From Fasciola hepatica (Eukaryota > Platyhelminthes > Trematoda > Plagiorchiida > Fasciolidae), in the NCBI GenBank assembly GCA_948099385.1, contig CANUEZ040000163.1, forward strand, positions 8,439,001 through 8,503,000: a stretch of DNA of 64,000 nt. The letters run 5' to 3'. A program made the translations under genes and the position numbers. The notes under the pieces are model-generated. The model searched no databases. It had not been told where the DNA came from and saw only the letters and a program-made list of their open reading frames with translations. Below, piece by piece: positions 19,445 to 50,366 of this stretch. Each line of letters begins with the position of its first letter. Positions within the stretch are counted from its first letter, which is position 1.

Positions 19445-19600
19445 CTCCGAAAAGCCTTGTGGTAACGTGTGTGTTTGTGTGCCTCACAACCATCCGACCC
19501 GGGTTCGGGTTTAAGTCCAGTCTCTATGGATAATATGCACTGCAACTGATGAAGGCGAATAACAAGCAGGGTAGGACAGCCGTACAACGATTGTATCATC
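19445..19600 (+). mobile_element. tRNA-derived SINE, copy 1
   Basis: A-box-like aagccttgtggtaacgtg (19452-19469) and B-box-like gggtttaagtcc (19507-19518). The body that follows (atgcactg...gat...aacaag...gg...acagccgtaca) is shared with the SINE at 33727-33880. Not a functional tRNA: an inserted GT-rich stretch breaks the anticodon arm. Confidence 0.6.
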
Positions 19601-22889: not shown

Positions 22890-23800
22890 CAAAAACACCT
22901 CATCGGATATCCGACCTCCGGGTGAGATGCAGCACCCTAGATATCAGAACTGATCTACTTGGTTTATAGTCTCCCCGGATACTAAAGGTTTGGTTTAGTT
23001 TGGACCAACCCAGTCCTGCAGCGGCATCTTGCATTTTGAAAATGAAAAACGCATACCGAACATTGACAGCGCAGTCAGTCATGCCGTCTAGAAAAGCTTG
23101 CAACTTACCTGGAGCTCCACTTAGAAGGACAATGTTGTCCGCATTTCCAGGTTCTGACACTTTTCCACCCTCGAAAACTTCAATACCACGATCATCACCT
23201 GACAAAAGTGTGGTTTCTAGGATCATATCAATAACGAAGTTAAAGAGAAAAGGAGAAAAGTGGCAGCACTGACATACGCCACTTTCGTGGTGAACTAGGG
23301 TGTAAGATCAGGGCCAGCCCGGACTCGGCTGCGGCTGTTCATGTAAAGGGACTAAGTGATAGAAAGGAATTTCTCTGATACACTCTTCAGCAAGAGAAAG
23401 CGCCAGAAAAGTTTGCGGTCGACTGATTTGAAATCCGTTTTAAGATCAAGAAAAACGGAGGTAGTGGGCCTACGGAAAGTGCATCTGTCTCCTGAAATTT
23501 TTCGAAGAGTGAAGAATTGATCAACACAACTTCGACCACGTCTAACCCCAGCTTGACTCTCGTGCGAGCATTTATCGTGACCGTTAGATGGACGATGGAG
23601 AATAATACCAGCGAGCAGTTTGGATTCGATGCTAAACAAAACTTATTCCCCTGCGGTTTCCATAGGAGAATCTCATAAATGGGCGTGATCACCAGCTCCT
23701 GGGAAATCAATCCTTATCCCATACCAAACAGAGGAGTTTTTCAACTCCATTACCAGCGCTCTGCCACCGTCTTTGAAAACGGACGATCCAGCAGTCCTAT
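22890..23800 (-). mobile_element. Non-LTR retrotransposon reverse transcriptase, decayed (CR1/RTE-like)
   Basis: Reading the minus strand from 23800 down, blocks appear in family order but in shifting frames. They are LFKDGGRALVMEL (finger region), SIESKLLAGIILHR, QAGVRRGRSCVDQFFTLRKI (usually QAGFRPGRGCIDQIFTLRQI), TSVFLDLKTDFKSVDR (usually VFLDLKAAFDSVDR) and then NADNIVLLSGAPGKLQAFLD (usually YADDIVLL). A last piece, LTRRSDIR, corresponds to the WRRRDIRLS stretch near the thumb. Both catalytic regions are damaged: the AAFDS Asp region reads TDFKS, and YADD reads NADN. Stops and frameshifts separate the blocks. Endonuclease and 3' end are not recognised. This is a dead copy inserted antisense to the plus strand, that is, sense to the spectrin gene. 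Confidence 0.85.
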
Positions 23801-27001: not shown

Positions 27002-28475
27002 ATGGTTTCAAAAAGCACCGGCTCCTTTTTACCCTCATGTCACATCATCCATTTTTATGAGCTAAGGAGACTGGACTTTTTTCTCTGATGCCCACACAAT
27101 CCGATCTATATACCATCGACTTGAGCACTACACAAGAAACATGGCAATAGACGCATAGAATCGTGCACCGAGTTTCTCCCAAACGATTCTAGCACGCAAC
27201 TCAATATGCGTGGATTATGTTGCGCTCTCTTATCACTTGCTGGCACGCAATGACTTTTGATGAGCAGCTCTACAGCAAACACATTTCTGAAAATGATACT
27301 GAACTCTAACTTTGAACAGCAAAGAAGATTATTAACTTCACCAGGCCCTATTCTTTGCAAACGAATCACTGTTCTTTCGTCTGCTATTAAACTAAATTCA
27401 TTATTTATTTGAATCCTGATTAGAATTCTTTCATGTAATCCCTGTAAGACGATTTGAAAAAATTGACTGGTTGAAATGTAAGCTTAGAGAATTCATGAAT
27501 TGATATGTATACTAATGTTTGTACACAGCGCATATCTCACACTAATAAGCAATTTGTCACTTCCGGATTACGATGAGATGCTCTTTGTTGAACAGTTCAC
27601 TAAAGAATCACAAGTGCGATTTAGTGGTGGCTTTTAGTGGGTTATTCGCAGCTAACTTACAAAACGATGATGCTAATATATTCGAAAATAATTGGTAAAA
27701 ATTAGATAAGGGTTAACAATACACCTGTGAAGTGTGCATTTATGCAGATGAATGGGCAGAGAAGTACCGGGTACTCATACCTGATGCAGAGTAGTAATCC
27801 CGAACCCGGTTGTGTGCTTCCGGGGAGATTTTGTCCACCCATCTCTACACCACTTACTTTCGAATTCAGTCCTTCCTTTTACGAAAAGATGGAACAGTTG
27901 TTGATGTACACGTTAAGATCTCTTCGTACCGCCTTCTACCCACAGAACTAAACCATTTAATGAAATAATCCTAATGGTAAAAGGCATTAGCCCCGGTGGA
28001 ATTTCGGCTTACGCATGGTCGCTACTTACGATTCCGTTCAGCCCTCAATTTACAAGGAAATTTCACGAATGTATTAAGCAGCTCACCCGCCGGACCGCGA
28101 TGAATAATTAATCCACACTCGTGGATATTTGGTTTGTGAACACCAGTTAATACACGGGGGAAGCCTATTAGAGGTAGGGTCCTACTGCAACCGATCGGAA
28201 CCTCGGGGAGTGGATCACGAAGCATGCTCAAATGTAGGTCACTTAAAATATTCGAAACCGTGCTCCAACGAGAATGATTGACACTAGTACTCCATCCTGT
28301 TCAATAGCGAGACACTGGCTCCCATTTACTCACACAGTGGACGCAAAGCCTTAATACTGGTTACTATACAGTCACTCGACAGCAAGGTTCTTCGTTCTGC
28401 TGAGGAGTCATCGGTCCGAATAACGAAGCCCAACTTTCAAGCCCAGAAGCTGATAAGCGCAGAAGTGAGGTTGCC

Positions 28476-28527: not shown

Positions 28528-29069
28528 ACAGGTGTAGTCCATTGTGATCTGTTGAAACGTTTTCTCCGTCCTATTGTTTAATCAATGTACTTCGTTGGCA
28601 TCGCTGGATGACATCAATGTAATGACTTTGCTCACATTACAGTTCACTCCATAGGGCGTTATAAATAGTTCAATGTGTGTGACTTTGGTTGTCAGGATAA
28701 AATCCTCTCAACAGTGAAAACAAAGAGTTTTCAGTGCATGGGAATATGAATAGATTGGTAAATGGAATCAAATTATCTTAAGTTATATTTTGAAAGGTTT
28801 CCCATTTAAAGTATTCAATAGGAAAATTTTTTAAGTCAATACATTTTGCAATTGTGTCTGAAGGAAAAGGTCTAGATAAGTTACGTTACAATTGGGAGAC
28901 TACACGTTATCTCACAAATCCCACAGAGCATATTTGGAAACGCACAGCTGTACAAACTAGCTTGTATCCAGTGATTCTTAACCATACCAGTACATGACAA
29001 TGTATGCGACAAAGCATATAAGAGATACATACAGTTAAAGATCAAAGTGTTAGGGATTCCTGTTCACAC

Positions 29070-30200
29070 CTATTGTGGCACAGGTTTATCCGAAAACCGG
29101 GTGTGAGCGGATGGTCACGTGCTCAGCGTGTGAGCGTTTTCCGTACAGAGAATATCCAACTGAAGTTCAATGAGCAGGTTCAATGCCAGAAAGATGGTGT
29201 ACCAATGGGATCTCTGCTGGGGTCACTATTTGCTGGTGTTTTTATGACAAAATTAGAAAACGGCCCGGTGCAACCATCGATCAGAAATCCTCAGTTGTAC
29301 AAGGGGTATGTAGATGCCACTTTACGCATAGTTGAGCAGTTTGTCCACAGAGATCAATCATTAAGCAGCTTCAGCTCGGTATTTCCGAACTTGCGCTTTA
29401 CACTAGCATCAGAACCAGACAACTCGATAGCATTCTTACTTTTACCTCGTCGAGAAGATGAATCAGTACGGTGATCGGTTTATCTGCTGATGTAGTTTTA
29501 TACCGTTTGAGTTAAAATGAATCCTAATTACATGTCTGCCAGACAGTGTGAGAAAGACACGCACCGAAGATACCATAGAAGAAAGGCTCCTAATCTTGTA
29601 CAATATCCTGATTCAAAATGGATGCCCGGAGCGTTTAATCGACCGGATGATGCAGATGGACGTAGACACTTAAAGGGAGAAGCTAGTTGAGAAGATGTTA
29701 ACGTATATTGCTCTGCCATTTAAAGGTGACGCATTGGCAGATGTCGCGCACAGAATATTATGAAGCGTCATCATCAAGATATTCTGTACTGATAGACCGC
29801 AAATTTTGTTCACATCTGGGACAGCGGTGCTTTTGAGGGTAATAGGAAGTGTGCCTGATTCTACAGTCTCACTTTGTGTGTGTTCATTCCCGAGGAAAAA
29901 CTATATCGGCAGCAAGACCAGACGCCCGTCTGGAAGATCCGTGAGCATCACCTAGCGTGGCTGAGGACTGGAGCAAATAATTCAATTACTAAAGCAGTCG
30001 TTTCACACCCAGCCGAGACTAACCATAAGGTGAACGTGGATCAAGCTCTTCATCCCCAGCAAAGGTTCCGAGATCGGTTGCCCAGATCAGTGAGAAGTCG
30101 AGTCTTGGCCTCAGCGGAGACAGTCGGAATTCGACTTCACAACCCATCTTTGTGCGCTCAAAACCTTACCTTACCTTACTTACCAATCAATGATAAGATT
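29070..30200 (+). mobile_element. Penelope-like retroelement, decayed (RT and GIY-YIG)
   Basis: The first frame (29073-29474) has the Penelope-type reverse transcriptase core: QKDGVPMGSLLGSLFAGVFMTKLE, then LYKGYVDATLRI, then FTLASEPDNSIAFLLLPRR (usually FT.E.E....LPFLDVL). The catalytic YVDD reads YVDA. Further on, in other frames, come EDTIEERLLILYNILIQNG, LPFKGDALADVAHRIL and PQILFTSGTAVLLR. These are followed by NYIGSKTRR (29905-29930 region) and REHHLAWLRTGANNSITKAVVSHPAETNH (29938-30030), the GIY-YIG endonuclease typical of these elements, ending with GIRLHNPSLCAQ. Stops and frameshifts interrupt the frame many times. The 5' part and long terminal repeats are not recognised. Confidence 0.88.
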
Positions 30201-31343
30201 ACACCTTATGGGTGGTTTAAAATGCATCCTAACAGTGACAGTCACACTAAAGAAAAGACATTCCACTCTGCATCCACGTGAACTATGGAACCAAGGTCAC
30301 TAGCTTGCGCTTCAAATAATTCCCTATAAGAATATTGCGATATCGATGAAAAGATACGATAAAACTAGATTCTATCGGCAACCTCGTTAAGAGATTCAAA
30401 GTAAAATTGCAAAGGCTGATAGGTTGGGATTTCCAATAACGGATAAAGTCCAGCAGGAGAATATTTCTGAACAATCTCACTTCCTGTTGCAAGTAAGGAT
30501 ACAGTACTTTCAAATGCAACTAGTATCAGGTGACAATAGGACAGCACTGAAAGACCAACAAAGGAAGGAACGTATTGCTTTCACTGAGGGATTCAAATCA
30601 CAGAGACTGCGATTTTGCTGGTGAGTTTAGCTTGCAAGCGAATGCTCAGTAGGTGACGGGCTATGGGAGGACTAGAAAAAGTCATATGAAGTGAAGAAAT
30701 CTAGCATAAAACGTATCCCCCCGAATACCAAGATATAACACCGACCTAAATTATTGATTTGGATTGGAATAATCCATAATCGGCCTTGTCGGAAAGTCTT
30801 CACAGTCGTGGCTGCAAAACTTCCCAAAATCCAGGGGAAACATGTCATCTGGGTGGGTAACCGTTTTATGGGATAAAGCTCCAAGCCGTGTTTTGCAAGT
30901 TGTTTGTAAATATATTCAAGCAAAACAATCTGTCTGTTCACTATTCAACTTTAGACTCGTCATGTTATGGACTACTTTAAGGTTCGGTTCATGCAATTTC
31001 TTCCCAATAACCCGAATTTAAACATAATAAAAAAACGTGTTCTCTGTTTTGAGGGGAGAATTCAGCGGGCTACGCCCGCACTGTCCACCGGTGTCCAAAA
31101 TGAAACCTGATAGAACAGGAAATGGAAAATGATTTCATTAGCAGCTTGGTGAATTTCGTGCCGAAATATCCTGAGGAATCAAAGCAGCATAATTAGTCGC
31201 CACTTTAAAACGGGCCACGAGAGTTATTGTCCCAGAGCTTCGCCACCATTTGTTAGTTAATACAGGTATATATTTTTGCATTTTGCCGTCACGTGTGAGA
31301 GCAAAATGTGAATATTTGCGCCCTTCCGTATGAGTTTAGAGAG

Positions 31344-32655: not shown

Positions 32656-33726
32656 CTGAAAACAATCCGGAATGGAGGTAACAAGAGAGATGGCTCATAG
32701 TCGTTTCTCTGTGCAACCAATTTATTAATCTTTTTCACATTCCACTTCAGTGAACAAGAAAACACGATTTTCAATAACGGTATGCATATAATTGCCTGAT
32801 GTCATGCAAGAAGCATTTATATAAAGGCACGTGAGCATCGCCGGACTTGGCCAAGCAGTGGAAATAGTGGCTTTCGCTATGTACAGGTTCACATGTTATT
32901 ACACCCAACCAATCCATGAGTGTGATCATACCGTTTCAAAAGTAAAAGACCATCCAAAAAAATAGTAAATAATAATGGTATTATTATTAGTAATAATCTA
33001 TTACTTCCTTTCTATGCAGTAATCTCCATTGTACAGTTTATTTCTGCAAGGGTACCGTGGCCAATCAAACGCTGTCAAGTAAGAATATCACCGGGGGTGG
33101 CAACAAATGAACCGGGGAATTTCAGGGTCCGAGTTTCACTAGAATGACCGTTTGTCTACTGCCGTGCAAGAAGGTCGGGGTTCTTTAAGTCTTGTTTTAA
33201 TCACACCGTTCCAGGCTCTGACTTGAATAAGTCCTCCTTCAGAGTGTTTAAAAAAAAAGAACTGAAAGAATTGGCATTTCCTTTGATCTAAGCTCACCCT
33301 CAAACTGTTTAAAAGTAGTTAAATATAATAACCAATATCAGCTTGTATATGTCGACCATATTATTTTGAGTCTTCATGCATAAAACCACAATTATTCCTA
33401 GTGCCCTAGTCATCATGATCTCACAAGAAGATAGTCATATCTAACTTGATGAATAGCACAGACAATGCAAACGAGGTTGTTAGCCCACATAGCGTGCTGT
33501 TGGACCGCAGAATGCTACCGTGACCACAACCATCCATTTTAATTTGCCACATAACTCGATGTCACATTCTGACTTGGACTATTCACCTTTTCCGTGTATC
33601 TTATAAGTCATCCATCATAGGAGTCGATCGCTGTGTGGGAAGCGGGTTGTTACCGTTTAAAAGCCAGTGACGGAAGGGTGCTATATCATGTGTTGTGTAG
33701 ATGTTCAACAAACCGTTGAGGGACAG

Positions 33727-33880
33727 CCCGGATAGCCTTGCGGTTAAAGTGTTCGATTCACAATCGTTCACCCCGGGTTCCAGTCCCCGTGGGGGCTCGG
33801 TGGATGTGCACTGTTGGTGATTCCCAACAAGGATGAAACAGCTGTACAGTGCTTCCATGGTTTTCTATGGTTAGTTGAGC
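33727..33880 (+). mobile_element. tRNA-derived SINE, copy 2
   Basis: Clearest copy in the window. A box in tagccttgcggttaaag (33733-33749), B box gggttccagtcc (33775-33786), the spacing of a tRNA, then a SINE body with gattcccaacaagg and acagctgtacagtgc. Copies at 19445-19600 (same strand) and 44325-44435 (opposite strand) share both head and body. Confidence 0.7.
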
Positions 33881-36476
33881 GTTCAAGCTGCATGATGAAT
33901 CATATTATATACAAATCTAATCTCCTACTACTCAATTGTACCTTATAATCACTGACCCGTTCAGTTACCTTGTTTCTTTGTTCTCGACCCGACCACGATC
34001 ACTCACTATCTTCCATTTGACTAGGGTTTTGAAACAGCATCGATTATCTGTTCACTGTGGCTGGTTCCCAAAAATTTCAGGATTATCTGACAGTGCAAGT
34101 AGTTGGGTGAACTTGCGTCCTCTGACTTCGAACTTCAACTTCGTTCATCTGCGACTCACTCAATAACCAAACGGTATAGGTACCCCTACTCCAAAAGCAA
34201 TTCAATCTTCACGATTTTTAAGTAATTCCCATAGTACGACTAGAATTCTCCTCCTTTTTTAGAACAAAAACGATTCGGTAACAAAGGAATGACCTTGACA
34301 ACAAATGAATCTAATACACAAAGAACCAATCTGAGTGATTGATTATCCACTACAAATTCGTCGTAATCACCCATTACAGTAGTCAGTTGCTGTTTGTCTA
34401 CGGCATGATAAATTTTCCTCGTGGCAATTGTCCGATGGGCGCTACAACATGTATTACTGGAAGCCAACCCGAACAAACTAAAAATGAACGTATAGGATTC
34501 CGAATACTGAATGCTCGTATTTAGTCTATACATCACGGTTTCTAACAAGCCAGCTGCCATGTTCGTATATACAAAATACTGATGAAGTATTCTGTATCAA
34601 ATATACGTAAAATTAGACTCCGTCACCCTCCTTGTTCTATCCAGTTCTTTTTATACTTGGTCGGTAAGTGAAATATTGAAATAAATTTTATTACTACTAT
34701 TATACTAATTCGACATTTCTGCATCGACTACAATGACAAGACCACGTGAAACAAGTTTTCAGACTTAACATGTGACTTCCAGTAAGAAATGTAACCAATA
34801 GAAAGTATTTGAATGGCTGAAAGGTGGAAAGTTTGTCTTTTTAGGGAGATGGATTGAGAGCTTAAGATAAATTGTACAAACAAGAATCAGTATTACCGGT
34901 AGTACTGCTAGTGATAATTTTTGGAGTGAAATAGAAGTGAATACAAGTTTCTACATACACATATGGCTGTGTTTTTAACAGTTCACCAGATGACGAACGT
35001 CACATTGTTTCATTTCAGAATGAGAGACATTTCCTGTTTGTAACTATGACAATGGGAGATCCTTTTCCGTGACTGACGACTTAGATTAGGTTTTGGTGAC
35101 AGTCTTTTCCTATGCACCTTGCACAAAAAAGTACAAAGAACGAGAGATTCATATTTGTACACGGGAGATTTTTCGTGTTTATCAGTAGTCACCTGAAGAT
35201 TAACTATTCCAATCCAGATTCTTTTTTATCTTCTGCATGGTTTGTTCTTCTGAATGCCATCTATTTGAATGATTGTTAAGAAAAACCAATAGCTGGGAAA
35301 ATCTTTAGCACCACTGATTTTGTGATAGTGAATATTGAAGAAAACAACAACCCAAGAACAAGCATGGAGAAAATCGGAATTTAAAAGACTATGTTGATAG
35401 CCGGGGTTTTAGCGACCTCAAACAGATATATATGCTCACGGGCTTATCCTCAGATCGTAGACAGAGGAACGGCCTCCGAATTGTTGGTTCTTTGTGAATA
35501 AAGTAGGTTCAGGCTCACTGAATGGGCACCCATGGACAAGCAGCGGCAGCGCCTGAGGACGTGGCTGATCGCCGTTAGCCGTGGTACAGTCACTTACTAC
35601 AGCCAACCTACACAGAACTGTTCACATGAATACTCTGTCTTGTTCCGTGTAAGGTGTGATCCTGTCCTCTTGAGGGTCAACTGAAAACGCGGTTGAGTAT
35701 CGGCAAGAATGACTTGGAGATCCTCGGACTACCGACGGTCTATGGTCGGTGATAACAGAAGGAAAACTGGGTTACGGTTTGTTCTGAGCTCGAACCAAAC
35801 CGCCACCCATGATGGGTGGTGATCAGCAATATCCATAGGGTTGACTTATTCACTAGCAGTAGAAAGTCGTGTAGAAGTAAAACGGAATTAACAGTCAACC
35901 CAGTGGTCTTTCGGCGGCAGAAACCTCCAGTCCCCCAGAAATATGAGTTTTGAACCCTGTCACTGCTGGTCACATTGGTAGTAGACTGAAAGTCACGGTG
36001 TCTTGGTCTTATGCCTCTGAGTTTCACAGTCATGTTTATTCGTTATTTTCATAGTGCCGTGAGCCTTCGAGACCTTTGTATAAGCCTCCACCATTGTACA
36101 CTTGTGTGAGCATGAGATAATACGAAATAGTTCAGTGTTTTTCTGTACTTTCGTTCCCACATTAAATAAAAACCGTTTTCAGTCTTCATAAGATTATCAA
36201 ATTTCAGAAAATTTAGGAAACATCTCAAATACGTCTAACTGATTGTAAAACTAAAAATCTGTCATGTTTTTACGCGGACTTGACTACTTGATAACTTAAA
36301 CCGGGTCACTTGTCTTCACAAGTTAGGCAATAGTATCACAATGCTGTTTACATTACACACATTAATCGCCTAGTGTCTCTGCATAAAGAATTCTGTTTCT
36401 TTATTTGTCAGGAAAGCACTGCGACAGTCAGGTAAAATAGTCTGAGTATCACGCAGTTACTTGTGAGTAGTATGTT

Positions 36477-36531
36477 GGATATGCACCGCTGATGAGCTAT
36501 AACAAAAGCGAAACTGGAGTCTGGTGCTTCC
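36477..36531 (+). ncRNA. Hammerhead ribozyme, type I, with minimal stem III
   Basis: All conserved elements occur in order. Stem I 5' strand is gga-(tat)-gcaccg (36477-36488), followed by the core CTGATGA (36489-36495). Stem II is gct/agc (36496-36498 with 36507-36509, loop ataacaaa), followed by core GAAA (36510-36513). Stem III is only A513-T520 and C514-G519 around the loop tgga. The cleavage triplet GTC is 36519-36521. The stem I 3' strand tggtgc-(t)-tcc (36522-36531) pairs over nine positions, including one G-U, with a small internal loop. Short-stem-III type I hammerheads are known from Penelope-like elements and from schistosome SINE-like repeats. No matching element body was recognised next to it. 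The RNA would be made from the strand opposite to spectrin. Confidence 0.85.
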
Positions 36532-36929
36532 GAGTGCAGGTGGGTCGGATGACCTGAGGTTTGTGCGTGGAAGGTGGAGTCCAAAGAAGTCAGCTAAACA
36601 AATATAGTATGACTCTTACAGATGGTGCCACAAACTGTAATGGCATCTAAGTTTTAAATTTTGACAAAGAAGCACATTTCATGCTTATGACTAATTGCCA
36701 CAGAATTGATGAACCCTGCTATTAAGGAAGTCTACAGCAGTCCTGGCGAAAACTGCAAAGTTTGACTTTGAACCCGCATTCGATAAATCACATCAGAGCC
36801 TAAACAGGTCAGAATTGGAAGTGAGCTGCATAGCTCCTTTATAGCTCTGTTAAACGACAACCGTGATTGGAACACTCATATGATTATTCTGTGGGCCGTT
36901 AATTGGACATCTCCATCGGAAACAGATAT

Positions 36930-36932
<3 letters not shown>

Positions 36933-36984
<52 letters not shown>

Positions 36985-37015
36985 GAGGGAGAGAGAGAGG
37001 GAGAGAGAGAATGAG
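36933..37015 (+). repeat. Compound TA / GA microsatellite
   Basis: TA run of 49 bases (36933-36981) directly followed by a purine-only GAGA/GGGA tract to about 37010. Strong polymorphism is likely. Confidence 0.9.
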
Positions 37016-39744
37016 TGCATGGGCTTGGTTCATGATGCCAAATCAACCACAGGAAAGAGAGGAATAAAGTACAACAATTAGTAGGAGAAGAATGCGATAT
37101 CCGTTTTTTTCACCGCACAATTTTGATGTTTTCTGTCATTTGCATTCGTCTTTTCGACAGTACATTACATCTGCAAGGCACGGGATTTCAACAAACTTCA
37201 CCCTGCGACAACTATGACCCCTTTGAGCTTGGCTGGGATAGTGAGAAGAACTAATCAAAGCCGGTGCTGATGCTAGCTTCGTCATGTTCCTACCCCAAAT
37301 CATGGACTGAACACCACGCCACATCTTCCACACATGGCCAGTATGTGTGAATATGGCACGTAAAGATTAACAACTCGCAATCGTTCTTCTCGGTTCCAAG
37401 TTTACATTCTGGGAGCTCAGTAGACGTGCGTTTCCACCAGTGATTCTTATCAAGACACAATTAACAGCTGTACTTTGCTTATTTCATGGTTATCAACGGT
37501 GAACTGAAACTGACAATACATGATGAGGTATTCGGTCACACACAAACGTTTACCATTATTACAGGATGCAAACATTTCGTTCACTCTTGTCAATACCGTA
37601 CGGGAAACATACGAATTCATACATAAAACGATACATAAAGTACACAGTGGAAAAACTGAGGAAATGTTTATCACAAATAAGTCAGAAATGTGTTTGGAGT
37701 GGTGTGAATAATGTCAGGAAAGCCACAAAAACAACTTTTGTAGACAATCTGCCTTCTCCGGCATTAGTCGCACAATCACAAAAGAATTGTTGACTTGTTC
37801 GTGATAAATACTTTCCTCAATTTTCCACTGTCTTTAATATGCACCGGATCACATATAAACTGAAATGCTTCCATCTCATAATGTGCATTCTTTCAATTCT
37901 TATTGCCTGCATGAAGGGAATACAATATTTCAAGTTTTACAACACTATCTGAGGTATTTATTTTATTCCTCAGTGATTTCCCTCAGAAAGTACTACCGGA
38001 GAGCAATGACCCCATCAGTGCGAACACACCATCCCGGTACCGACTGATTTCACAACGGAAACACCTCAACAACAAACATCCCCTTCAAGCAAACACGGCA
38101 ATCGGGTCGCATATCTACACACCGGTCAGAAAACATCCCTCGATCTTGCGCTGAAGAATGCTCCTAGGCCCTTCTATGACAAGTTTCAAATATTGCACTT
38201 GGGTATGTGTGTGCGGACATCGTAGGCCCTTTAGGTAGTTCACTGAAGGGTACTGGAATCATCTGACAAATAGTCACTGAATATTCAGGAATTCCAATTA
38301 TATTGTCTGTTGTGGCGTGCGCTCAGCTACCGCGTCGGACATCGACAACGATGGTGGTGGTCTTTGCAAATCTACCTTAAGTATTCGATCTCATAGCAGG
38401 CAAGCCTGTTGGATTCACTTAATACAGTTATTGCAAATTTCACAGTCGAAAAGCTTTTAAAAGCTGAAAGTATGTTTCCACAACTTGAAGGTATCCAAGT
38501 ATACGTGAGACATGATCTGCACATTGCTGTGCTACAGGAGAGTTTTCCTACAAGAACTTCTGTTTTACTGTATAACTTGGACGATTCAGGAAAAAGGAAT
38601 TATCTTCGAAAGTAACAGTTTTCATTCGAGTTTCACTGGTACAGTGGGTCAGGCACATTCACCAGCAGGACACATTGTAGTGTCATGGCTAACTGGTGAT
38701 GGTCGCTCTCAGACATGTACTGACGGAGATCCCTCTAAATCATCAGTAGGTCAAACGTGGTGAAGAACCCTGGCAACAACAGATTACTATCCAACACCAC
38801 GAGTGAAGACCACCATGACAATGAAAATTTACTGCTATAGAGTGAATCACTTTAACCAACCCAGAGGCAAAGGCTGAAGAGGGTCGTATTTATGGAAAAG
38901 ATCAAAACAGACAGAACGAATTCTACCGATGATATGTGGGTCAAATTGACGTGGATGGTGGGTAGACGACCTAACTCGATGCCTGCAAGAATGTAATCAA
39001 AATGGAGCCGAAGTTCACTCAAACCGTCTAGGCGCCGTGTGCTAGAGAGTCGCTTTACCGAAGTTGGTACGGTGATTCCAATCTACCTCGGTGCAGTGCT
39101 AGTGTGAAAACGGACCGCTTAAGGACGGAATCGTGTGCCCTGCCATTTCGAGCTGCCTGACTCAGTCAGAACCGTCGTGTCTCCCAAGCTTTGGTATCAC
39201 ATAACAAAATGAGGGCAAACTGCCTTAGAGTCTATTCAGTTCTATCCCAAACGCGGATCGCTTTCTCACTGATGACGAACAATTTTCACAAAATACAAAC
39301 CCTATAACTTTGTCTCATGAAACTTTCACGGACCTGTTCAGATTCTTTTCCGTGTTTCCAACCGACGCTTTGGTACCACAATTTGAGGGTGATTTTAAGC
39401 TGTCCTCTAGAACAAAATTATTCAACCCAAACTGTTTCCCTGAGGGACTAATTACATCTGAAAGGTGTCGTGACCCGTGGGAGCATTAAAACACAATCAG
39501 TAAACAATTTGGATTTTGTCCACTTTTTACAACTCCATGTGGTTGGTGAACTGAAGGGAGATGGATTGCAGACTAACGAGCATCAGTGTGCGCACATTCA
39601 CTGGTCAGTCTGTTGTTCTTGGTCGACTATCTTCTTCCGTAAGCGCATGCGAGTGGGGTGGGGGCAGTGGAGTGAGGCGTGTGAATTTCGCAATAGAACC
39701 AAACAGATCATTTTACGTCGGTGTAAACATGCCAACGAAAACTA

Positions 39745-39786
39745 CAGCAACAACAACGACAATAACAACACCAACAACAACAACAG
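39745..39786 (+). repeat. CAA trinucleotide tract
   Basis: Imperfect (CAA)n (cagcaacaacaacgacaat and onward). It produces an Asn/Thr-rich frame on the plus strand (39470-39913) and a valine-rich one on the minus strand, neither taken as a gene. Confidence 0.8.
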
Positions 39787-42700
39787 TCGACAGGAATTCA
39801 GTTATTTTGGAACAATTCGGATGAAGGAGAACAAAGCACGGACATACGTAAATGAGTTGGTGAAATACATCCGAGTTTCCTCTAGGGGGAACAACGAGAG
39901 TAGTGCAGGTTGACTGAGAAGTGGGAAAATCGGGCACAATGATGCACGGTGAGAAAATGACGTGTATGATGACTGTGAGCAAAAAACGATCACAACAACC
40001 ATTCAGTGACCAGAACAGGCGAGTCCTCGGAACACCGGTGACTGCAAAGATCAATTAAGATCTGGGAATTTTAGAAGTGAAAATTTAGTGAGTAAATGTC
40101 CCATTGCTTGTACGCATTTTGCAACCACACACAATGGATATGATGTCATCGGAACCATTTTCCTACGGTATTTCTTGTGGTTTAGGACTTTGAGCCATTG
40201 TTGAAAATCCGTGCATCAACATATTTTGTGAAGTTCACGGGTAGATATAAATTATAACATCTATTGCACGAGATAAGGCAAATTACATCTATATTGAAAG
40301 TGTAGATTTGATTGATGGCACGTTTTGTTGTTGGATTCTCTCTTAGTGAGAGCATCCAGTGATTCTTGCGTGACCTTCGTAATGCACTATCCCAAAAGGA
40401 CAGCTACATGTAATGACTTCTAAGTTTGCATTCGTGTATGATACACAACTGTCCTTTGAGAGATCATCCCCTCTGTTGGGAGCAACAGACTGGGTTCTGT
40501 AAAATGGTCGCGGTCGATCTTCACGTTGATCCTGGTTTTCGTGTGATAGTGGTGACGGTCAAAATGATTCATCAAAAGTTATCGAGCCCCATTCAATGAC
40601 TCTAGTCCTCTAAGCGGTGACACTCAGCATATTATACTACGGAAAATACGACTGTGTAGAGATGTGATCAGTGACGGCGATCAGTAAATGAGTATTGGGG
40701 CTGATCTCAAAAGAATTCTCAAAGCAAATTGTTTTTGATGATAAACTATCCCAGTACAAATTCGACTGCTTGCTAAGTTTTTCAATCCACAATTCAAATA
40801 AGAATCAGAATTGGTTTGGTGTTTATGGGGAAAAGTGGAGCACGGTGGCCGGCGGTATCGCGAAACGGTCATGAAAAGGAACATCTAATCTGAAAGTCCC
40901 GGGCTTAAACTCTGCGGCTGCCATCGGTCATTTTCCTTTAAGGCATCCGCTAAGTGGCGTCTGCTGTTTTCTCAGATTTATTGCGATTTATGCATTATAA
41001 ATAGGAAAGGAAGTGCAACCGCATTATCATTGTTATTATTATTGTGAGAGAGATTCTAATTAGTTGATGTTTCGTTCACCGTGGATTGCCCCTTAAAAGC
41101 AGGTTCACGAACCGATGAATCAGGGTTAAAAATCTTTATTTATTGGGCTTCCAAATTCCCATGTTCGTGTGTATTGTCGGAGAGGAGGGTGATCCGCTGC
41201 TTCCACTAGCAGTCCCTGTAGTGATGGCGTTACTTAACGTCAACAAAGCGTTGCGGCCGTTGGGATGTTTATTCAATAACGGATTATTGTCTCCAAAATG
41301 CCTGAAATATCTTAGTAACGCTCTAATTGGACAGAGACTTTATTTCAGAAACCCCATATGGTTGGAAAAGGAAGCGTTACTTTGATTCGACTTTTTCCAA
41401 ATAGCAATAACAATTTTAGAACTCAGTGAGTTTGCTAACGGAGGATTAACAGTGGCTTGACTCGGCAAAGAACACCACAACGATTGGTATCGACTTTCCT
41501 CGAGAAGCTGTCGCCAATACCAAAAAACCCTTCCTTAGAACTTTCTGGTCTTCCGTTCTCAACATAATCCATGCACTGAAAGCAGTTTCCACTTTGTGTG
41601 GTTTTTATTTACATACATACAAAACTTCATCACACGTAAACAGTGCCATGATAGCATAGACTGCTCATTATTTGAACACAGCTCAGAAACCGTTGCGTGT
41701 CTCCTCACATAAATTCTATGATGAATCAATATAGAGTGAATCAGTCGCTTTTTTATTGGCGGTTTCTCAAACACAGAATGTAGCGGAGATTGATGAGATA
41801 ACAGAGGGAGGCATTTATCAAGCGGATCACATCGCCTAACAGCTTCAGACGAAAGGAAAAGCTACGACTTACTCCCAGAAAACCCTCAACAGACAATGCG
41901 AACCTCAATAGCAAACAAGCAGACCTTAGCAGAATATAAGACAGATAGTGAGAAGGCCCAAATCGAGGGCTGAAGATCAACGTGCCAGTCGGAACTATTG
42001 TGAACAACTCCAATGGCCGAAGGCACTCAGCTAAAAAAAGAAGCCGAGATGCCGAGGTAGCATTGCTGGTGTAAAAATGAGCTACATAAAAGATTGTGCA
42101 CTCTTAGTCAATTGGGAATTATTTGATCCTACCCGTTTCGCCTTTTGGCAGCAAAACGACACGGGGCAAGCTAAGTTTGTGATGGGATTAGTCAAGCTCA
42201 CCACCATAAAATTTACTTACACCTCGAAGATGCAATTTCTGAAGATAACAAAAATGCTTATAACAAGTGGCAGGTACCCACCCAGGCGAAAAACCAGGAT
42301 TTTACGTGAAAATTGCAAGCGTAATCTTTAAGTGACCTGTGTTATAGCAGGGGCAGTAATGGCAGTCTGATAAACGCCTCTGCATACGGCCAAGTCAATT
42401 CACACTCTTATGCACCCTATCCTGGACGATTTGAGAGCAATCCTCGGACAGTTCATGAAAGACCAACATGAATGTGGTAATGTGGTGGTTTTTCTAATGC
42501 ATGGGGAAAACAGCCAATGCGACATCATTATTATCATCCAAAGCCTGATTTAGGTACAGAAGTAAGTGATCATGGTGGAAAACAGCAACAACAGCAAGCT
42601 GGAAAAATCTCCTAAGTCTTACCCACCAAACCTCCAGCACGCTAACAAGGATCGTTATAAGTTTTATCATCTCCACGTCATTGGGCTGAATAGTTTCAAG

Positions 42701-44324
42701 AATTTCTTATCCTTGATAACGTTTATGTGATCACCCAAATCTAACTACAGCGCACGGAAAGTAAGTCGAAAGCTAAAACAAATTACGATAAAATGTGAAC
42801 CTTCTCAAAATTGCTAAAAATGACTACCCATAATCAGTGTTTACAGGCAGATTTTTATCGGCCCAAAGATCAAGCCGGCCAGTTTATCCGATCCTACTCT
42901 GTACCGCCGTGGAGGAATTTACAGGAAAATAATCTTTCTAGATATGTTTAGCGCTATTCTGCCGGTCTTTTTTGTCGAAACCCAGGAAACATTACTACCT
43001 GAATCAAATGTTTGGGTTTTCTACCCACCACCCCTTTTTGCAACGTCATTTTGTTCGTGAGAAATGCAAAAAATGCCTTTTCGTTTAAGGTAGAGTTCTC
43101 AGCAACATCTTTCAAATTTTTCAGAAAAGTTGAATGCACTTTTTTTCGTTGCATCGCAAAAATAAACCGAATGTTTAATAGATCGCGCTTGATTTTAAGG
43201 CAAGATATTCCAAGAAAGAGCCTACCGTTTTTCTTCTCATGAGTCCAACATCAACCGCGAATCATTCAATAAACCACCAGTGATGCTGTTTTATCTATTT
43301 GTACTGCTTATGCCTCGTCCTGCTCAGAAGAAACACAACCGACACTCCCACGGAAGAACATGCTCCTGGCAGGATTGGGATGAACGACTCTAGTGGTAAA
43401 ACCCTTCATATGAAGAACTTTATTCTATTGACTTACAAAGTTATTCATATTCGGCTGTTCAATAAATTTTGGCTGTCAAACTTCGGTCAATTTATTCGTG
43501 TTATTCAAGATCACACAATTTCAACTTCACACGATACTAAAGAGCTTACGTAAAAAAATCCTGTCATAGAGATTTTGATATTTCCGTCCTCTTTCTGCTA
43601 CTGTATGAGAAAGTTTACGAAAGTATTGTCCAAAAAGAGAAAATTATTTTTTCACTAGAATTTCGAGAGTACTTGAATATTATAAGCAAGTGTTCGTTGT
43701 TGAGATAAACAAAGTTGTCGGAAAACCTGTTCCCATTTAGGGTTCTAGTTTCATCTTTTTGACCGCCATCTACAAAGTCAACTCTGAATTCCGATATAAC
43801 GACCAAATCAGAAATTCCGTAACACATTTGGCTAAGCAAGCAAAAAGTGTGGGTGATTATTCTGCGCTTGAAGTAAAAAACCAAATGTCAGCTTGTCAAC
43901 CGGGGCTTAGTATCGTTAGATCACATTTATGATTTCCTAGTTCACTTACAAATATGAACAATGAGGAAGTTTGTTTGTCCAAACCGTTTATTTTTAATTA
44001 CGATCAATATTGATGGCAACAGAAACACTACAACACCTATTGGCATTTGTTCTTCAGATTTTGTACACTACACATTGTTGCAGGTTTGAATAGGTGGAGG
44101 CCAAACTGCACTACAAAATCTGGCCTTTTAGGCAAAATAATACTAGTTAGTAGTTAAACTGGAGCCCAGTGGTTAGACTGTATTCACAAACGATTTCATC
44201 AGTTTCAAGAGTTCATGATCGCTGAGATTGATAGCTTGTTTGCAAATGTTTCAACACCAGTCTAGATTATTTCATCAGCGCTCAGTGATGTATTTCGGCC
44301 ATTGTTTATGTGAACTTATTCAAT

Positions 44325-44435
44325 GTCATCACACTACACACAGCATACACTTGTTAGGAATCGTTGGCTGCTGTAATCGCACTCGAACCTGGAATGAATC
44401 TTTGACAGTTACACACGTAACCTTTGGACTATCTG
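44325..44435 (-). mobile_element. tRNA-derived SINE, copy 3 (reverse orientation)
   Basis: On the minus strand: A-box-like gatagtccaaaggttac (44433-44417), B-box-like ccaggttcgagtgc (44392-44379 region), then gattcctaacaag as in copy 2 (gattcccaacaag). The order head to body confirms the minus orientation. Confidence 0.6.
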
Positions 44436-44466
44436 GGCTGGTTCTCCATTGTTTGCTTTGCGTCAA

Positions 44467-44483
44467 CGCTGCTGAAAGCAGCG
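44467..44483 (+). repeat. Perfect short hairpin
   Basis: cgctgct-gaa-agcagcg: a seven-pair GC-rich stem with a 3-base loop, just upstream (on plus) of nothing recognised. Could be part of the SINE-flanking repeat. Function unknown. Confidence 0.5.
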
Positions 44484-45375
44484 CCGGTTCTTCACGGTCT
44501 TTGTGAATGGTAAAATCCAACGGGTGGAAATTGATTGACTTCAATGATGATGGATTCCGAAAATCTGTTTCAGCAGTTGGAGGTTCAGATTCTGAACGAA
44601 TCACCCCCGCATGTATTGTGAACGCTCAACATATCTATAGAAACCCCCAGCATCGTTCATTGTGAAGCTGTCTCATATGACCCGTTAGATGTCATCAGCT
44701 AGAATACATGTCCATTGAATCCTAGCTACAACTACCTGCTTTATGTAAACCTCAATAGTCTTTCAAAATCAAAAGCCTTCACAATTATTCCAGTCCAATT
44801 TTAAGTCGGTGGACATGCACTATAGATCATTCCTAATCCACATGCAACTAGCGGTAGCACTAACATCTCACTAAATTATCATTCCTTGGTATTGTTTGAC
44901 ATTTGAGATAATGGACAAGAAAACACCAAGGTGCTTTTGCTTTGGTCGAACTGGGCATTTAATCATACGCGTACAGTCAAGATCTACATTAATTGTACGA
45001 ACGTGGAACACGAACTAAACTGTTACATGGCGAATTACATAACAATAAGAAGAGTAGGAGACGGAAGTTTCTTACAAGTCAGGTGGGACTTGCTGAGTGT
45101 GGGTAAGTTCAGTTTTCAACAAATCGACCACATTAGTCGTTGATTGCTGTTTTTTTATGTTTATCTGAGTGTTATCTACCGAGGTGAGCAAGTCTTAAGC
45201 TCTTTCTACTCCCAGTTGTTTATAAACCACTGTTGATAAAATTCCTCATATTCAAAAAGAAACACCTTTGTTTGTTAGACAACTGATCATCTCTTTGGGT
45301 GAGCAACTGAAATAAGACGTATCACCCTTTTCATCTACACGTTTTTCCCACGAACTTATGCTTATACAAGGCTAA

Positions 45376-45395
45376 ACTTTGCGTTGTCGCAAAGT
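45376..45395 (+). repeat. Perfect short hairpin
   Basis: actttgcg-ttgt-cgcaaagt: an eight-pair perfect stem with a tetraloop. No T-run follows and the setting is intronic, so a bacterial-type terminator is not implied. Confidence 0.5.
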
Positions 45396-47514
45396 CTTCG
45401 CAGCCCTACACGGGTCAAACATTTGTACAGCCATATGTGAATCTTTACAGGTGCTCTAGTGTGTATTAGAGCAAAAGATGCGAACATCATGATAAGACGA
45501 TGACACGCAGCAAGATAATCTTGGCTGTTGTCTATCTGGTTTGTTTTGTAGATAAACAATACCACCCATGAACGCGAACGCAAAAGGTCACAATAACAGT
45601 GTGGAGAGAAAAAATTCATACAAATCATTCATATGCTTCAAGGCATCCGTCGATGGCATCTGGTGAATTTATCCATAGTGTGAGGTGCGCACTCACACTC
45701 CTTGCCACGTCTGTGGTTGTAGTGACACGAATAATCATTTGTTGACTTATTGCAATTTGAAAATTCTGTTCCAACTCATTTACGAACACAGGTGAGCATA
45801 AGCAAAGGTGAATTAAGGGCACGATATGCATTAGATAAGGATCATTTTCATTTTCTGAACAGAACAAAGCACTCAATTTGGGACTATTGCTCTAACAGGA
45901 AGACGTAGCTACGAAGTCAATCGGATCAGTCAACACAAGGGCCCTAGACGGAAAAAATATCTACGAGAATAAGGATTTCAAGGCGAAACGTAAATCCGGC
46001 TAACTGAAAGATGACCCAGATTGTAAGCTTTCGGTAGAAATGTTGATCGAGACAATCGAGCCTATACAACAAGAATGGTCGACAGAAGGACAAGTTCAAT
46101 ACCCGCAGATGGATATCAAAATAATGGCCGTAATGCGCGAGTAGCAAGTAGATCGATTTAAGTGGGGTTTGGATGTGAACAGGAGGAACAACCTGAAGGG
46201 CTGCAGATGTCATGTTGTTTGGAATTGTACGGTTCAGTTGAGACAGCTAATTATTCCAAGAATCGCTCTGGTGTTACAATGAGTAATTGTAAAATTAATT
46301 TGTTAATGAGCTGCAGGGTTTTTCATCATCTATCTCCACCATTCGTGACACTGATCCAAGTGAATATATTCTGCAATGACCAGATCTCATGCGTTGGATG
46401 AAGTGAGTGACTAATTTGGATGTCTTTAGGAGCCAAGCTGTTTTCTGTGCTCGGTCGATTATTTCCTAATTACTGCTTTCAATACCATACGATTTTGGGG
46501 ACCGCTAACTTTAACAACAATTCCATTTCTAATTTTTGATGTTGTTTCTGATCGGTCAGGTGGAAATACGCTTTCAAAATCAGTATTTCTTTTGTGCCTA
46601 ATGAGTGACCTATAGCTATCCATTCCGGGCCATATTAACCACCATAGTGTACAAAAATTGCCTACCACGGTGATTCAGAAACCAAACAAACGTTAACAGG
46701 TAAAAGTCATTGAATTGGCTTTGCCAGCAACTCACCTCGTTTTGGTTGACCGGAAATAGATGTTCGTATTTTAAGAAAGTTAGGTCCAAGCATCTCAGAG
46801 AAAACACAGTGTTTTGGAAAATAATCCCGAATTAAGAAGGTCCTTTTCACTATCACTGTTAAATATCTCTCAAGAAACGGTATTTTTGCGGCTAAGCACG
46901 TGGCGCAGTGATTTCCTCGACAATTATAACTACTGAATGCAGTTCAGAAGCCGTAAAGGCGACAAAATGATAATTATAATCGGTTTGTGTTTCGTTGAGG
47001 ACTCTAACCCGATCCTTTGTTTCAGAAGTCTTATCTACTTGGCAATTGGACCCCAACCGAACACAGGAATGTGACCCGAGCGTCCACATAAAAGCTCCTT
47101 CCTTTGGTGCGTCTCAATATACCTGGTTGTTTGTCTTCAGTGTTGTGGTAGTTGAAGAGGTGGTTGTTGATCGGTTCTCTGGATTCAGCCTATGAGTCCC
47201 GCGCGAGCAATGGGAAAGCAAAACGTGGACAGAACAGCATCTTGTGAACTGGGAGCTGCCAAAAGTTGATGCACGATAGTCGAACAGTGAAGCGCGTTCA
47301 CTTTTCCCACCGTCAAGAGGGTTTTCAAGTAAATCAGTCCTCAGCTAACAGCGCACAGCCCTTGGAGTCCTCAGTGCAAATTTTGTTTCTGAGTGCTCAT
47401 GGAGTGTTGGTCTGGGTGTGAATCCAACTGAGAGCACACTCCAACATAAAGCACTGATTTTGGTGACATGGTTGGACGTCAGTGCAATGGAAGGAATGTA
47501 ACCAGTTAGTCTCG

Positions 47515-47620
47515 AAGGCTCACTGAACTAGTACGGATAACCGGCAACCTGATTCTGAATCTTGGGTTGCGGAACCGTATGAAGTCCTAAGAAATCAGGT
47601 TTGGTAACCAATCGGGTAAC
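47515..47620 (+). repeat. Dispersed repeat family B, copy 2
   Basis: Partner of the copy at 6457-6560. The two share the opening aagg.tcact.a.cta block and the accggcaa block with similar spacing. No coding capacity recognised. Confidence 0.4.
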
Positions 47621-48335
47621 AATGTGCGGTGAGGCACAGTTACTACTCGTATAAGTGACAAGTAGCTCACTAATCGAAGACCGTTATCAACAGCGGAGTG
47701 ACGGTGAACTAGATGACGACCAGCAGACTAAACACAATGAAAGAAAGCAAGACGCAGAAATAACTTGAAAGCATTCCCAGACCGAATAAAGATCGGCATA
47801 AAATGGACAGGGCAGTTTTGATGCAAATTCATATTTCTACTATGATTGATTGATTCTGGTCTAATTTAACTATCTGGTTCTAACGAAGAAATCATTATTC
47901 ATCTATTTTTGCAGATTATGGCAAGTGGATTGAAGTCTGCTTCTAAAGTAACCCGTGATAGTTTGGTCCGAACTCCTGATCTCTCTGGTGGCAAGGGAAA
48001 GCTTTACACAATTCGACAACCACCGGCTCAAACCAGACTCGCAGAAGTTTACTAACGCATAAAGTTACACTTTGCATCACGCTACCAATAACAGCATCGA
48101 TCGTTCAGGTGCCCGTTACTGCAATCTATGGCCATACATTTCCTTGTAATTTATTCTTGTCTTGACTAGACTGCATAACCTTACCCAAACAGCTCAATCT
48201 AAAGGGTTTAGAAATACCAAGTGGTAGAAAACATTAATTAAAAGACACTTTATTCTTCCATTCTAGAGAGTAAATCACGTGGTAATGACTGGAGACGATT
48301 AAACAAATAACATCACGAATTTAGATCCCTATAGT

Positions 48336-48380
48336 TGCAGGTTTGAACCGTGACACAGTTGGATAACTTCTCCTACCGTT
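48336..48380 (+). repeat. Dispersed repeat family C, copy 1
   Basis: Shares gcaggtt.gaa..(g/a)tgacacagttggataac, then ct.ctaccg.tg, with 49308-49354, 970 bp away on the same strand. Immediately after comes gctgatgaattt, which recalls a hammerhead core but lacks the GAAA partner. Confidence 0.65.
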
Positions 48381-49262
48381 GCTGATGAATTTCATTACAG
48401 TTAAATCATAAATAAGACTGAAAAGTAGCATCTTCTGCTCTGCACAGTAAAAAATCGAGCAATTTTTATGGTATGAACTAATACATTTATTACTGATAAT
48501 ATTCCACCGTCTCAAGAATCAGCAACTGTGTGCCCCATGACAGGGTTGCATTCGTTTCGTTGCTTTTAAACACTTTCGCCCCAAAAATTCTTCCAACTTT
48601 CCCAGTTATTTAGAGATGATTTAACTTTCCTGAACCACCGGCACCAGGAATCATCATTTTTTGGGTTTTATGCACTCGTTGGAAGAAGCAACTCAGTGAT
48701 TTTTTGTGGGATGTGGTTAAAATGTTGGAACAGCAAGAGTAGAACCAACATACTAACACACGCATGTCTGTCAAACTATGAACTTTCTGGTCTACAGGAT
48801 TCATTGTACAAGTGAAATACGTGCGGTCCTATTTCTGAACTACTGTCAATTAGTCCGGTGTCTAGGCCAACGTGGAGTCACGCGCAATCCTGAGAAACAA
48901 AATCCACTAGTCGAGGTTTAGTTTGCGGTACTATAATGCAATAGTCAATCAAATTGTTAAAATTTGCAGACCTCAGAACTTAGCGTCCACAGGGGAATCA
49001 CCGTTTAATCACGTTCTGTATAGTTCAGAAAGGATAACATACTAGAGCCAACTGGCCGAGGAACACAAGTCACCAAGCTGGTTAACAAAACGAGTGCAAC
49101 AATGCGAGCAAAAGAAAGGAATCCGCGTTTAAGTGACATAAACAAATGGGAAGGTGAACATGCCGACATCGATCGACGGGTCTGATCAACCAGCAAGTAG
49201 GACAGGGATTCACTCAAGCACACAAATACACGATTAGTCACGGGTCGAACAGGTCACAGTGT

Positions 49263-49264
<2 letters not shown>

Positions 49265-49299
<35 letters not shown>
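49265..49299 (+). repeat. GT dinucleotide microsatellite
   Basis: Uninterrupted TG run of about 35 bases. Confidence 0.92.
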
Positions 49300-49301
<2 letters not shown>

Positions 49302-49307
49302 ATACAC

Positions 49308-49354
49308 GCAGGTTGGAATGATGACACAGTTGGATAACACCTACTACCGCTGAA
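49308..49354 (+). repeat. Dispersed repeat family C, copy 2
   Basis: Same block as at 48336-48380 (tgacacagttggataac is identical). It continues ctactaccgctgaagagg. It lies immediately after a GT microsatellite (49265-49299) and upstream of another GT-rich run, which suggests a repeat end. Confidence 0.65.
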
Positions 49355-49661
49355 GAGGTTCAAACGCACCGTGTTTATGCACGATTGCCGAGTGAGGCCG
49401 ATCAGAACTCGGTGCCCAAATCAAACAGTCTAGTCCAGATCTAGTCAAATCAAGGGAGTGGTGGTTCAGCGTGTGCGAGTCTGTGTGTGTGTGAGCTGAA
49501 AGGGCAACGCTTGGGGGAGCGAAGGGATATCGTGAACTTATAACAATGCAATCATGCGGTCAAAGTCTAATGAGTTACGAACATGTCGAAACAGGTTCAA
49601 ACGAAGCATAGTTTGGTGTTGATGGATGAGCAGAGCCGCAAACAGAAGGAACAGATTCAAT

Positions 49662-49664
<3 letters not shown>

Positions 49665-49706
<42 letters not shown>
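49665..49706 (+). repeat. TA dinucleotide microsatellite
   Basis: Uninterrupted AT run of about 42 bases. It yields a spurious Tyr/Ile-alternating frame on the plus strand. Confidence 0.92.
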
Positions 49707-49709
<3 letters not shown>

Positions 49710-50366
49710 CCAGTTTGCTCAACGAGGCAGAGTAGTGGGTATACCCAGAACAGAATATTGGTGTCACGTTTAACCTTAAAATATCGTGGTCCCGGCTATT
49801 CTGAATGAAAACGACATGCTCAAACTTCGCTGCTCTGACTCATCAATGTTTCATTTCTCACTTGATTGCATGATTCACGTATTGTTCTGGATCAGCGGAT
49901 TCTGGTATTTGATAGCCATGTATGTTCACATTTGAAGTTACAACTAATAAAGTTCATTCGAATTACAGACTTATTAATTACGTTTTTTCGCAACCGATGC
50001 GCCAATATGAGCGAGACGAAACGGACGATCTCGTGATCATAGGTAACAAAACTAGCAATTTTGCGATGCTCCATCTCGGGTTCGATTCGAAGGAAAATAA
50101 CACTCCCCTTTCTGCCGGATGGTCACCATATGATCAGAAGATGTCCTATGTTATCTAACCCCATCCCGTCTTAGTCTCGTCCTGGTATTGTTCGGTCATT
50201 CACGATATTCCACTAATTCTTTGTGGCTCATGAAGTTCCCTTTCCTACTGAAGCACTAGAGCGTATTCATGTAATAAAAATACCTCCGCGGTCAAACTCA
50301 GGGTAGTGGTACAACACGGGGTCAAAGTGAACAACAGAAAGCACCTTAGGCAAAGAGAAAACTCAC

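Follow-up and report, generated by a model that had tools for sequence, protein, structure and literature searches.

The 36.5-kb site of the window, by which we mean the whole 64,000-nucleotide stretch of Fasciola hepatica DNA analyzed here, is a complete type I hammerhead ribozyme by sequence and predicted fold, and on balance it probably derives from a short non-autonomous trematode retroelement, likely related to the surrounding tRNA-like repeat and, judging from its architecture, to the schistosome Sm-alpha SINEs. The features on which this reading is built are summarized in Table 1. Read directly from the sequence, all conserved hammerhead parts lie where the first-pass annotation had placed them: the CTGATGA and GAAA core (CUGAUGA...GAAA in the RNA), the cleavage triplet GTC (GUC, of the NUH type), a stem II of gct/agc and a two-pair stem III around tgga. 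Three helices surround the junction, with stem I open-ended and stem III comprising only the pairs A36513-U36520 and C36514-G36519, around UGGA. The proximal helix of stem I is followed by a 3x1 internal loop (UAU 36480-36482 facing U36528) and by a distal helix of five pairs, formed by 36475-36479 with 36529-36533. The nine pairs with an internal loop originally described are correct within 36477-36531, where six proximal and three distal pairs are found; the full stem has eleven. Both partners of a possible loop-loop tertiary contact exist, namely the UAU/U internal loop of stem I and loop II (AUAACAAA), and cleavage is expected, by analogy with the hammerhead consensus, between C36521 and U36522.

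Table 1. Coordinates of the hammerhead modules, the tRNA-like repeat and the host intron in the window.
Feature	Positions	Strand	Remarks
Complete type I hammerhead ribozyme	36475-36533	+	Stem I of 11 pairs with 3x1 internal loop, stem II of 3, stem III of 2
Stem I, proximal 5' arm	36483-36488	+	Partner 36522-36527; six pairs, junction pair G.U
Stem I, 3' arm	36522-36533	+	Proximal 36522-36527, U36528 bulge, distal 36529-36533
Core CUGAUGA	36489-36495	+	Read from sequence (CTGATGA)
Stem II	36496-36509	+	GCU 36496-36498 / AGC 36507-36509, loop AUAACAAA
Core GAAA	36510-36513	+	
Stem III octamer ACUGGAGU	36513-36520	+	Two cis pairs; outer three pairs possible between two copies
Cleavage triplet GUC	36519-36521	+	Cut site predicted from hammerhead consensus
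Degraded sister hammerhead	33800-33858	+	Stem I as in the 36.5-kb module, GAAA kept, triplet GUA
Repeat copy	33588-33915	+	Holds tRNA-like part and sister hammerhead; same intron
tRNA-like part	33726-33797	+	Directly upstream of sister; A-box-like 33733, B-box-like 33776
Repeat copy, full length	19313-19656	+	B-box-like GGGTTCGGGTT in its tRNA-like part; not scored as a hammerhead
Repeat copy, partial	19126-19337	-	
Repeat copy, full length, decayed	61036-61377	-	
Repeat copy, partial	37331-37540	+	0.8 kb downstream of 36.5-kb hammerhead
Two repeat pieces	44354-44537 (E 8.4e-13), 44600-44748 (E 2.9e-07)	-	Profile matches, not used in building the profile
Putative 17.7-kb intron of CH/spectrin-repeat gene	32656-50366	-	Splice sites read from sequence; holds both hammerheads

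The connection between the ribozyme and a retroelement runs through the degraded sister module, which lies 2.7 kb from the intact hammerhead, in the same intron and on the same strand. Its core reads UUGGUGA (vs CUGAUGA), stem II has lost its first pair, and stem III, ACAGCUGU, is fully self-complementary; given the altered core and the lost stem II pair, the sister should be inactive. Hammerhead_HH9 (HH9), the best Rfam match at the 36.5-kb site, also matches the sister at 33798-33866 with 19.8 bits and E 0.012, a value that applies to 221 bases chosen because they adjoin the tRNA match; scaled to the window, E is about 3.5, and the sister is absent among the matches of the window-wide Rfam search. 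Aligned ungapped, 33800-33858 and 36475-36533 share 37 of 59 bases, a score that none of 1000 shuffles attains. Among 2116 sub-windows on both strands the sister is the best counterpart of the intact module (score 36 vs 28 for the next distinct place), and when the query is extended to 461 bases its score is reached by one shuffle in 1000, other places scoring 44 and 37 through non-ribozyme parts. Searched against the whole window, however, 9 of 400 shuffled modules match something at a score of at least 36, as do 29 of 400 other real 59-mers, the latter including true repeats. These controls led us to lower our confidence in the retroelement reading slightly and to raise slightly that in a Penelope-like or retrozyme remnant and in chance assembly, both considered below.

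Both modules keep a stem I of 6 + 5 pairs and the 3x1 loop. Four of these pairs differ at both bases; across the two modules 31 of 32 cells are paired, and sliding the partners destroys the pairing, while the two-sequence covariation is equalled by 34 of 500 shuffles. The tie to the sister rests on these 59 bases, the flanks of the two modules being unlike (574 of 1000 shuffles are as good upstream and 445 of 1000 downstream). A module model built from the two hammerheads and scanned across the whole window finds no further convincing copy, the next best matches having E 0.048 (59683-59737, minus strand, 15.0 bits) and E 0.1 (27767-27823, plus strand, 14.0 bits). The second of these was picked from the model's list and rejected as a hammerhead copy, with no Rfam hammerhead at that place; this weak hammerhead-like match lies about 1.2 kb upstream of a probable Penelope-like relic on the same strand.

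The sister is embedded in a dispersed repeat some 320 bases long that carries a tRNA-like part internally and is found in at least six places in the 64 kb, on both strands, as five aligned copies and two pieces found by profile. The Rfam tRNA match within the 33.6-kb copy is weak, at 23.6 bits against a gathering score of 29 and with a window-wide E of 1.9, and ARAGORN finds no tRNA in the whole window. This match ends at 33797 and the HH9 match begins at 33798, so that tRNA-like part and hammerhead abut. About 140 bases of the repeat precede the tRNA-like part, which is therefore not at the 5' end and does not form the head of the element. In the alignment of 33588-33909 with 61042-61377 on the minus strand, a score of 81.5 is reached over the initial 138 bases (0 of 1000 shuffles); the tail and the hammerhead piece align weakly (equalled by 14 and 13 of 1000 shuffles) and the tRNA-like piece not significantly (277 of 1000). 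The same copy matches 19328-19643 (plus strand), 19183-19313 (minus strand) and 37361-37526 (plus strand), with 0 of 500 shuffles as good in each case, and the 19.3-kb match covers both the tRNA-like part and the hammerhead region. The two pieces added by the profile align at 44375-44518 and 44610-44728 on the minus strand. The copies at 19.1-19.7 kb stand back to back in opposite orientation. A second interspersed repeat, of about 330 bases, is present as an inverted pair (14239-14571 and 16468-16787, 75% identical).

The two-module hammerhead model scores only the 33.6-kb copy of the repeat. In four of the five aligned copies, the profile alignment reads three extra bases just ahead of the core, and these would shift stem I out of register. 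Compared with the intact module, the piece at 19.4 kb resembles it (6 of 1000 shuffles as good), and those at 61.2 kb (613 of 1000), 19.2 kb (537), 37.4 kb (313) and 44.7 kb (63) are not distinctive. From these sequences it seems likely that the founder of the repeat carried a working hammerhead. The first-pass annotation had seen no Penelope or SINE body beside the ribozyme; this has to be revised, since the tRNA-like repeat lies on both sides of it on the same strand (33588-33915 and about 37331-37540) and the window holds probable Penelope-like relics.

The five-copy repeat profile gives no match at 36.5 kb even at E 10, and Rfam reports no tRNA-like part there; a promoter-box scan finds A-box-like sequences at 36506, inside the ribozyme, and at 36744, with no B box. 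The flanks are not repeated in the window: the best scores elsewhere are 44 for the upstream and 35.5 for the downstream flank, whereas the top score among 12 shuffled queries per flank is 48 and 38.5, respectively. No target-site duplication of at least nine bases is present at 36.5 kb; the corresponding comparison at the 33.6-kb copy (none of at least eight bases) carries no weight, as the flanks used lie inside the repeat. No tandem hammerhead copy was found beside the 36.5-kb site, which is devoid of retrozyme-like units of 170-400 bp, and a tandem retrozyme was rejected, as no second unit lies in the vicinity. The 12-base repeat GAAACTGGAGTC/GAAGGTGGAGTC at 36510 and 36570 was considered as a second hammerhead and discarded, since by eye no stem I is possible. 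An imperfect palindrome of 188 bases (37644-37831, 68%) lies 1.1 kb downstream of the hammerhead and may be a fold-back element. With no recognisable repeat flank and a single hammerhead, the site most likely represents a relic, either truncated or solitary, and its link to the tRNA-like repeat through the 33.8-kb sister, drawn from sequence comparison, is likely, not proven.

Hammerheads have been described in short retroelements of schistosomes, of a mussel, of a coral and of an axolotl (PMC2770079, PMC8490949, PMC7229834, PMC7761336). In schistosomes, about 38,500 hammerhead candidates are reported for S. mansoni and about 5,000 for S. japonicum, hammerheads occur in Sm-alpha and Sj-alpha, and a SINE like Sm-alpha, derived from tRNA-Gln (Gln-TTG), is called specific to S. 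mansoni (PMC2770079). The arrangement in F. hepatica shares with Sm-alpha and Sj-alpha a fluke genome and a SINE-like element bearing a hammerhead, and just as a tRNA origin is reported for the Sm-alpha-like element, one copy here presents a tRNA-like part followed by a hammerhead (PMC2770079). It differs in that the tRNA-like part is situated about 140 bases inside the repeat and in that the 36.5-kb copy has no repeat flanks, and for Sj-alpha no mention of a tRNA origin was met; the elements are likened here by published description. The W-elements of S. mansoni carry type I hammerheads with the core CUGANGA and GAAA and an extremely short stem III, and in vitro cleavage was observed for three of the five tested (candidates 1-3, which are variants of W25.2 and W36.2) (PMC8490949). 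The type, core and extremely short stem III agree with those of the 36.5-kb hammerhead (PMC8490949), whereas the W-elements are described in satellite-like families and the present hammerhead is single in the window. What was earlier proposed as an undescribed non-autonomous element is better taken for a relative, in another fluke, of the hammerhead SINEs of schistosomes, though the 36.5-kb site is without recognisable SINE flanks. Among the matches listed in the literature search, no title names a hammerhead SINE in a non-schistosome fluke, which is no claim of absence. A viral contig collection searched with two hammerhead patterns gave 0 matches, in a search from which near records may be left out. 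In a genome contig collection, the one pattern match was rejected as a relative, being bacterial coding DNA in which Rfam finds no hammerhead; on that contig the two-module model lists ten matches, all at most 7.9 bits and none at the pattern match.

The strongest competing explanation, which we regard as unlikely but to be taken seriously, is that the hammerhead is the remnant of a Penelope-like pseudo-LTR or of a metazoan retrozyme monomer, and that the tRNA-like repeat is related to it through a hammerhead ancestor only, or not at all. Thousands of minimal type I hammerheads are reported in animals, mostly dispersed and some in Penelope-like pseudo-LTRs (PMC7761336), and the pseudo-LTR hammerheads resemble ours in type and in their minimal stem III, with probable Penelope-like relics present in the window; they are described as being without helix III or tertiary contacts (PMC7761336), whereas the 36.5-kb module has a distal stem I helix and an internal loop and no adjoining Penelope body. 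The metazoan non-LTR retrozymes are likewise of type I, and their helix III is often weak, in which case activity is found in the dimer (PMC7229834, PMC7761336); they form tandem repeats of about 170-400 nt, unlike the hammerhead at 36.5 kb, which has no tandem copy. The sequences of the window bear on this alternative in both directions. At 29022-30281 on the plus strand lies a probable decayed Penelope-like element, frameshifted and interrupted by stops, with the motif KDGVPMGS and a GIY-YIG-like tail; we take it to be Penelope-like on the basis of its reverse transcriptase and GIY-YIG motifs. It has no Pfam match, and its reverse transcriptase piece no protein-search match. A second, short trace resembling the endonuclease tail, also on the plus strand, is seen at 62015-62128; it matches at 44.7% over 38 residues, with a within-window E of 9e-05, and contains two stops.

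The presence of these probable relics, the lack at 36.5 kb of both a tRNA-like part and flanking repeat sequence, and flanks unlike those of the sister all favor a Penelope-like or retrozyme origin. Against it, neither a tblastn search using the decayed relic nor inspection of the translated frames, both weak tests, reveals a reverse transcriptase or endonuclease piece at 33.86-36.47 kb or within 1.1 kb downstream, no tandem copy adjoins the ribozyme, Rfam finds no hammerhead at 26-32 kb around the relic, and the stem I sequence is common to the sister within the repeat. A single Penelope-like element with one hammerhead per pseudo-LTR, 2.7 kb apart, was rejected, because the flanks differ, no coding remnant is seen between the two and the 33.8-kb hammerhead is within the repeat. 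LINE-like reverse transcriptase fragments are also present at 22903-23642 on the minus strand (Pfam RVT_1, E 0.008, below the cut-off and in one of two frames); together, the probable Penelope-like and LINE-like relics indicate that reverse-transcribing enzymes were once present in the genome.

The short stem III is of the kind found in retroelement hammerheads, as first noted, and the proposal that such a ribozyme works best as a dimer fits the modelled pairing, in which the outer three bases of ACUGGAGU can pair between copies. Short helices III with better activity of the dimer are reported for the axolotl retrozymes (PMC7229834), and dimer activity has also been suggested for Penelope-type hammerheads (PMC7761336). 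Stem III is self-complementary in both modules (ACUggAGU at 36.5 kb and ACAGCUGU at 33.8 kb). Since a self-pairing stem III with at least three outer pairs arises in 13.9% of random octamers, this is only a hint. The computed energy of the dimer hammerhead is -28.2 kcal/mol, vs -21.2 for two monomer hammerheads and -28.8 for two minimum-energy monomers.

That the motif is a hammerhead-like sequence assembled by chance is very improbable. The full-length HH9 model scores 29.9 bits at the 36.5-kb site, with E 0.0019 for 64 kb and 4227 families (E 1.2e-05 within 401 bases), and this is the only hammerhead listed in the window-wide Rfam search with E up to 10. The first-pass annotation had named a covariance-model match above threshold as the test of its claim; formally this failed, as the HH9 gathering score is 52 and no Rfam family passes its own anywhere in the window, a point in favor of chance. 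The shortfall is not decisive, because HH9 is the family of one mammalian intronic hammerhead, that of C10orf118, with a strict cut-off. Folding energy is also unremarkable, with z-values of -0.81, 0.64 and 0.47 in three plus-strand stretches (41, 144 and 130 of 200 shuffles as good), and the hammerhead fold is not the minimum-energy fold of either the 36.5-kb or the 33.8-kb module. A loose hammerhead descriptor is satisfied by one of the 17 CTGATGA sites on the two strands of the window, the 36.5-kb site; in 400 order-2 Markov windows it is satisfied 0.0125 times per window, or 0.0075 times with at least six stem I pairs. A second simulation, of 27.6 million flanks around the given core and with a narrower geometry, yields 0.0020 per 64 kb for the loose class, so that the loose expectation spans 0.002 to 0.0125 per 64 kb. 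Six stem I pairs occur there at 0.00079 per window and, with the distal stem added, at 0.00017; six stem I pairs with a G-C first pair in stem II and GUC, without the distal stem, are found in 11 flanks (about 5e-6 per 64 kb), and the full architecture including the distal stem in none of the 27.6 million, these strictest classes (distal stem, stem II G-C, GUC) having been chosen with the motif already in view. That simulation, the E of 0.0019 across all Rfam families and the position of a related module within the tRNA-like repeat argue against chance, and the initial judgement that a random occurrence is unlikely stands.

The hammerhead, of probable trematode retroelement origin, lies in a putative intron of a host gene on the opposite strand. 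The 17.7-kb intron antisense to the ribozyme was initially proposed; the gene appears to be a CH/spectrin-repeat gene, and the minus-strand splice signals fit such an intron, with a donor GTGAGT at about 50366 and an acceptor TTTTCAG before about 32655. Pfam, applied to ten reading frames, identifies on the minus strand a CH domain in one (E 1.4e-17) and a spectrin repeat in two, and the closest solved structure to the CH-domain frame is a spectrin beta chain. The protein of the host exons is closest to public assemblies with 72% and 64% identity and to Paragonimus westermani with 66% over a third of the query, which points to a trematode source, in a search whose candidates spanned only 0.55 to 1.75x the query length, so that full-length spectrins of other worms could not appear. 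With both hammerheads antisense to the gene, the host pre-mRNA contains the complement of the ribozyme and cannot cut itself, and the host gene should be unaffected unless there is transcription of the plus strand.

Mammalian intronic hammerheads, of which those of C10orf118 and RECK are the Rfam families HH9 and HH10, are comparable in being intronic and in that HH9 is the best Rfam match here; they differ in that the 36.5-kb site falls well below the HH9 gathering score (29.9 bits vs 52) and lies opposite to the gene strand. Retention by selection of an intact intronic antisense element that cleaves itself in an antisense transcript, as proposed for amniote intronic hammerheads, is extremely unlikely: the core is intact while the sister 2.7 kb away decayed, and the best Rfam family is that of the C10orf118 hammerhead, but the pre-mRNA carries only the complement, the hammerhead being opposite to the gene strand, and a younger insertion explains the intactness equally well. 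The C10orf118 hammerhead is reported in all examined mammals except mouse and rat (PMC3088659). We give as little credence to the fuller version of this idea, in which the ribozyme would have been recruited from a tRNA-like hammerhead SINE and retained in the spectrin-family intron to cut antisense or enhancer RNA as its neighbour copies decayed. An intronic ribozyme kept on its own, the other option of the first-pass annotation, is possible, with no positive support in this window.

Under the preferred reading, that of a short non-autonomous retroelement, the tRNA-like part of a full element would drive transcription by RNA polymerase III, and the resulting RNA would fold and self-cleave at the C36521/U36522 junction, giving one end with a 2',3'-cyclic phosphate and one with a 5'-OH. 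With a stem III of two pairs, a single molecule would cut poorly, and pairing of two copies through ACUGGAGU would improve cutting; the reverse transcriptase of another element would presumably copy the RNA back into the genome.

A hammerhead in a short fluke retroelement is already known from blood flukes, and the single site at 36.5 kb is most likely an ordinary relic of this kind. Should intact copies of the tRNA-like repeat in this fluke prove to bear a functional hammerhead, SINEs of the Sm-alpha kind would extend further among flukes than is apparent from the schistosome reports found, one of which calls its tRNA-derived SINE specific to S. mansoni.
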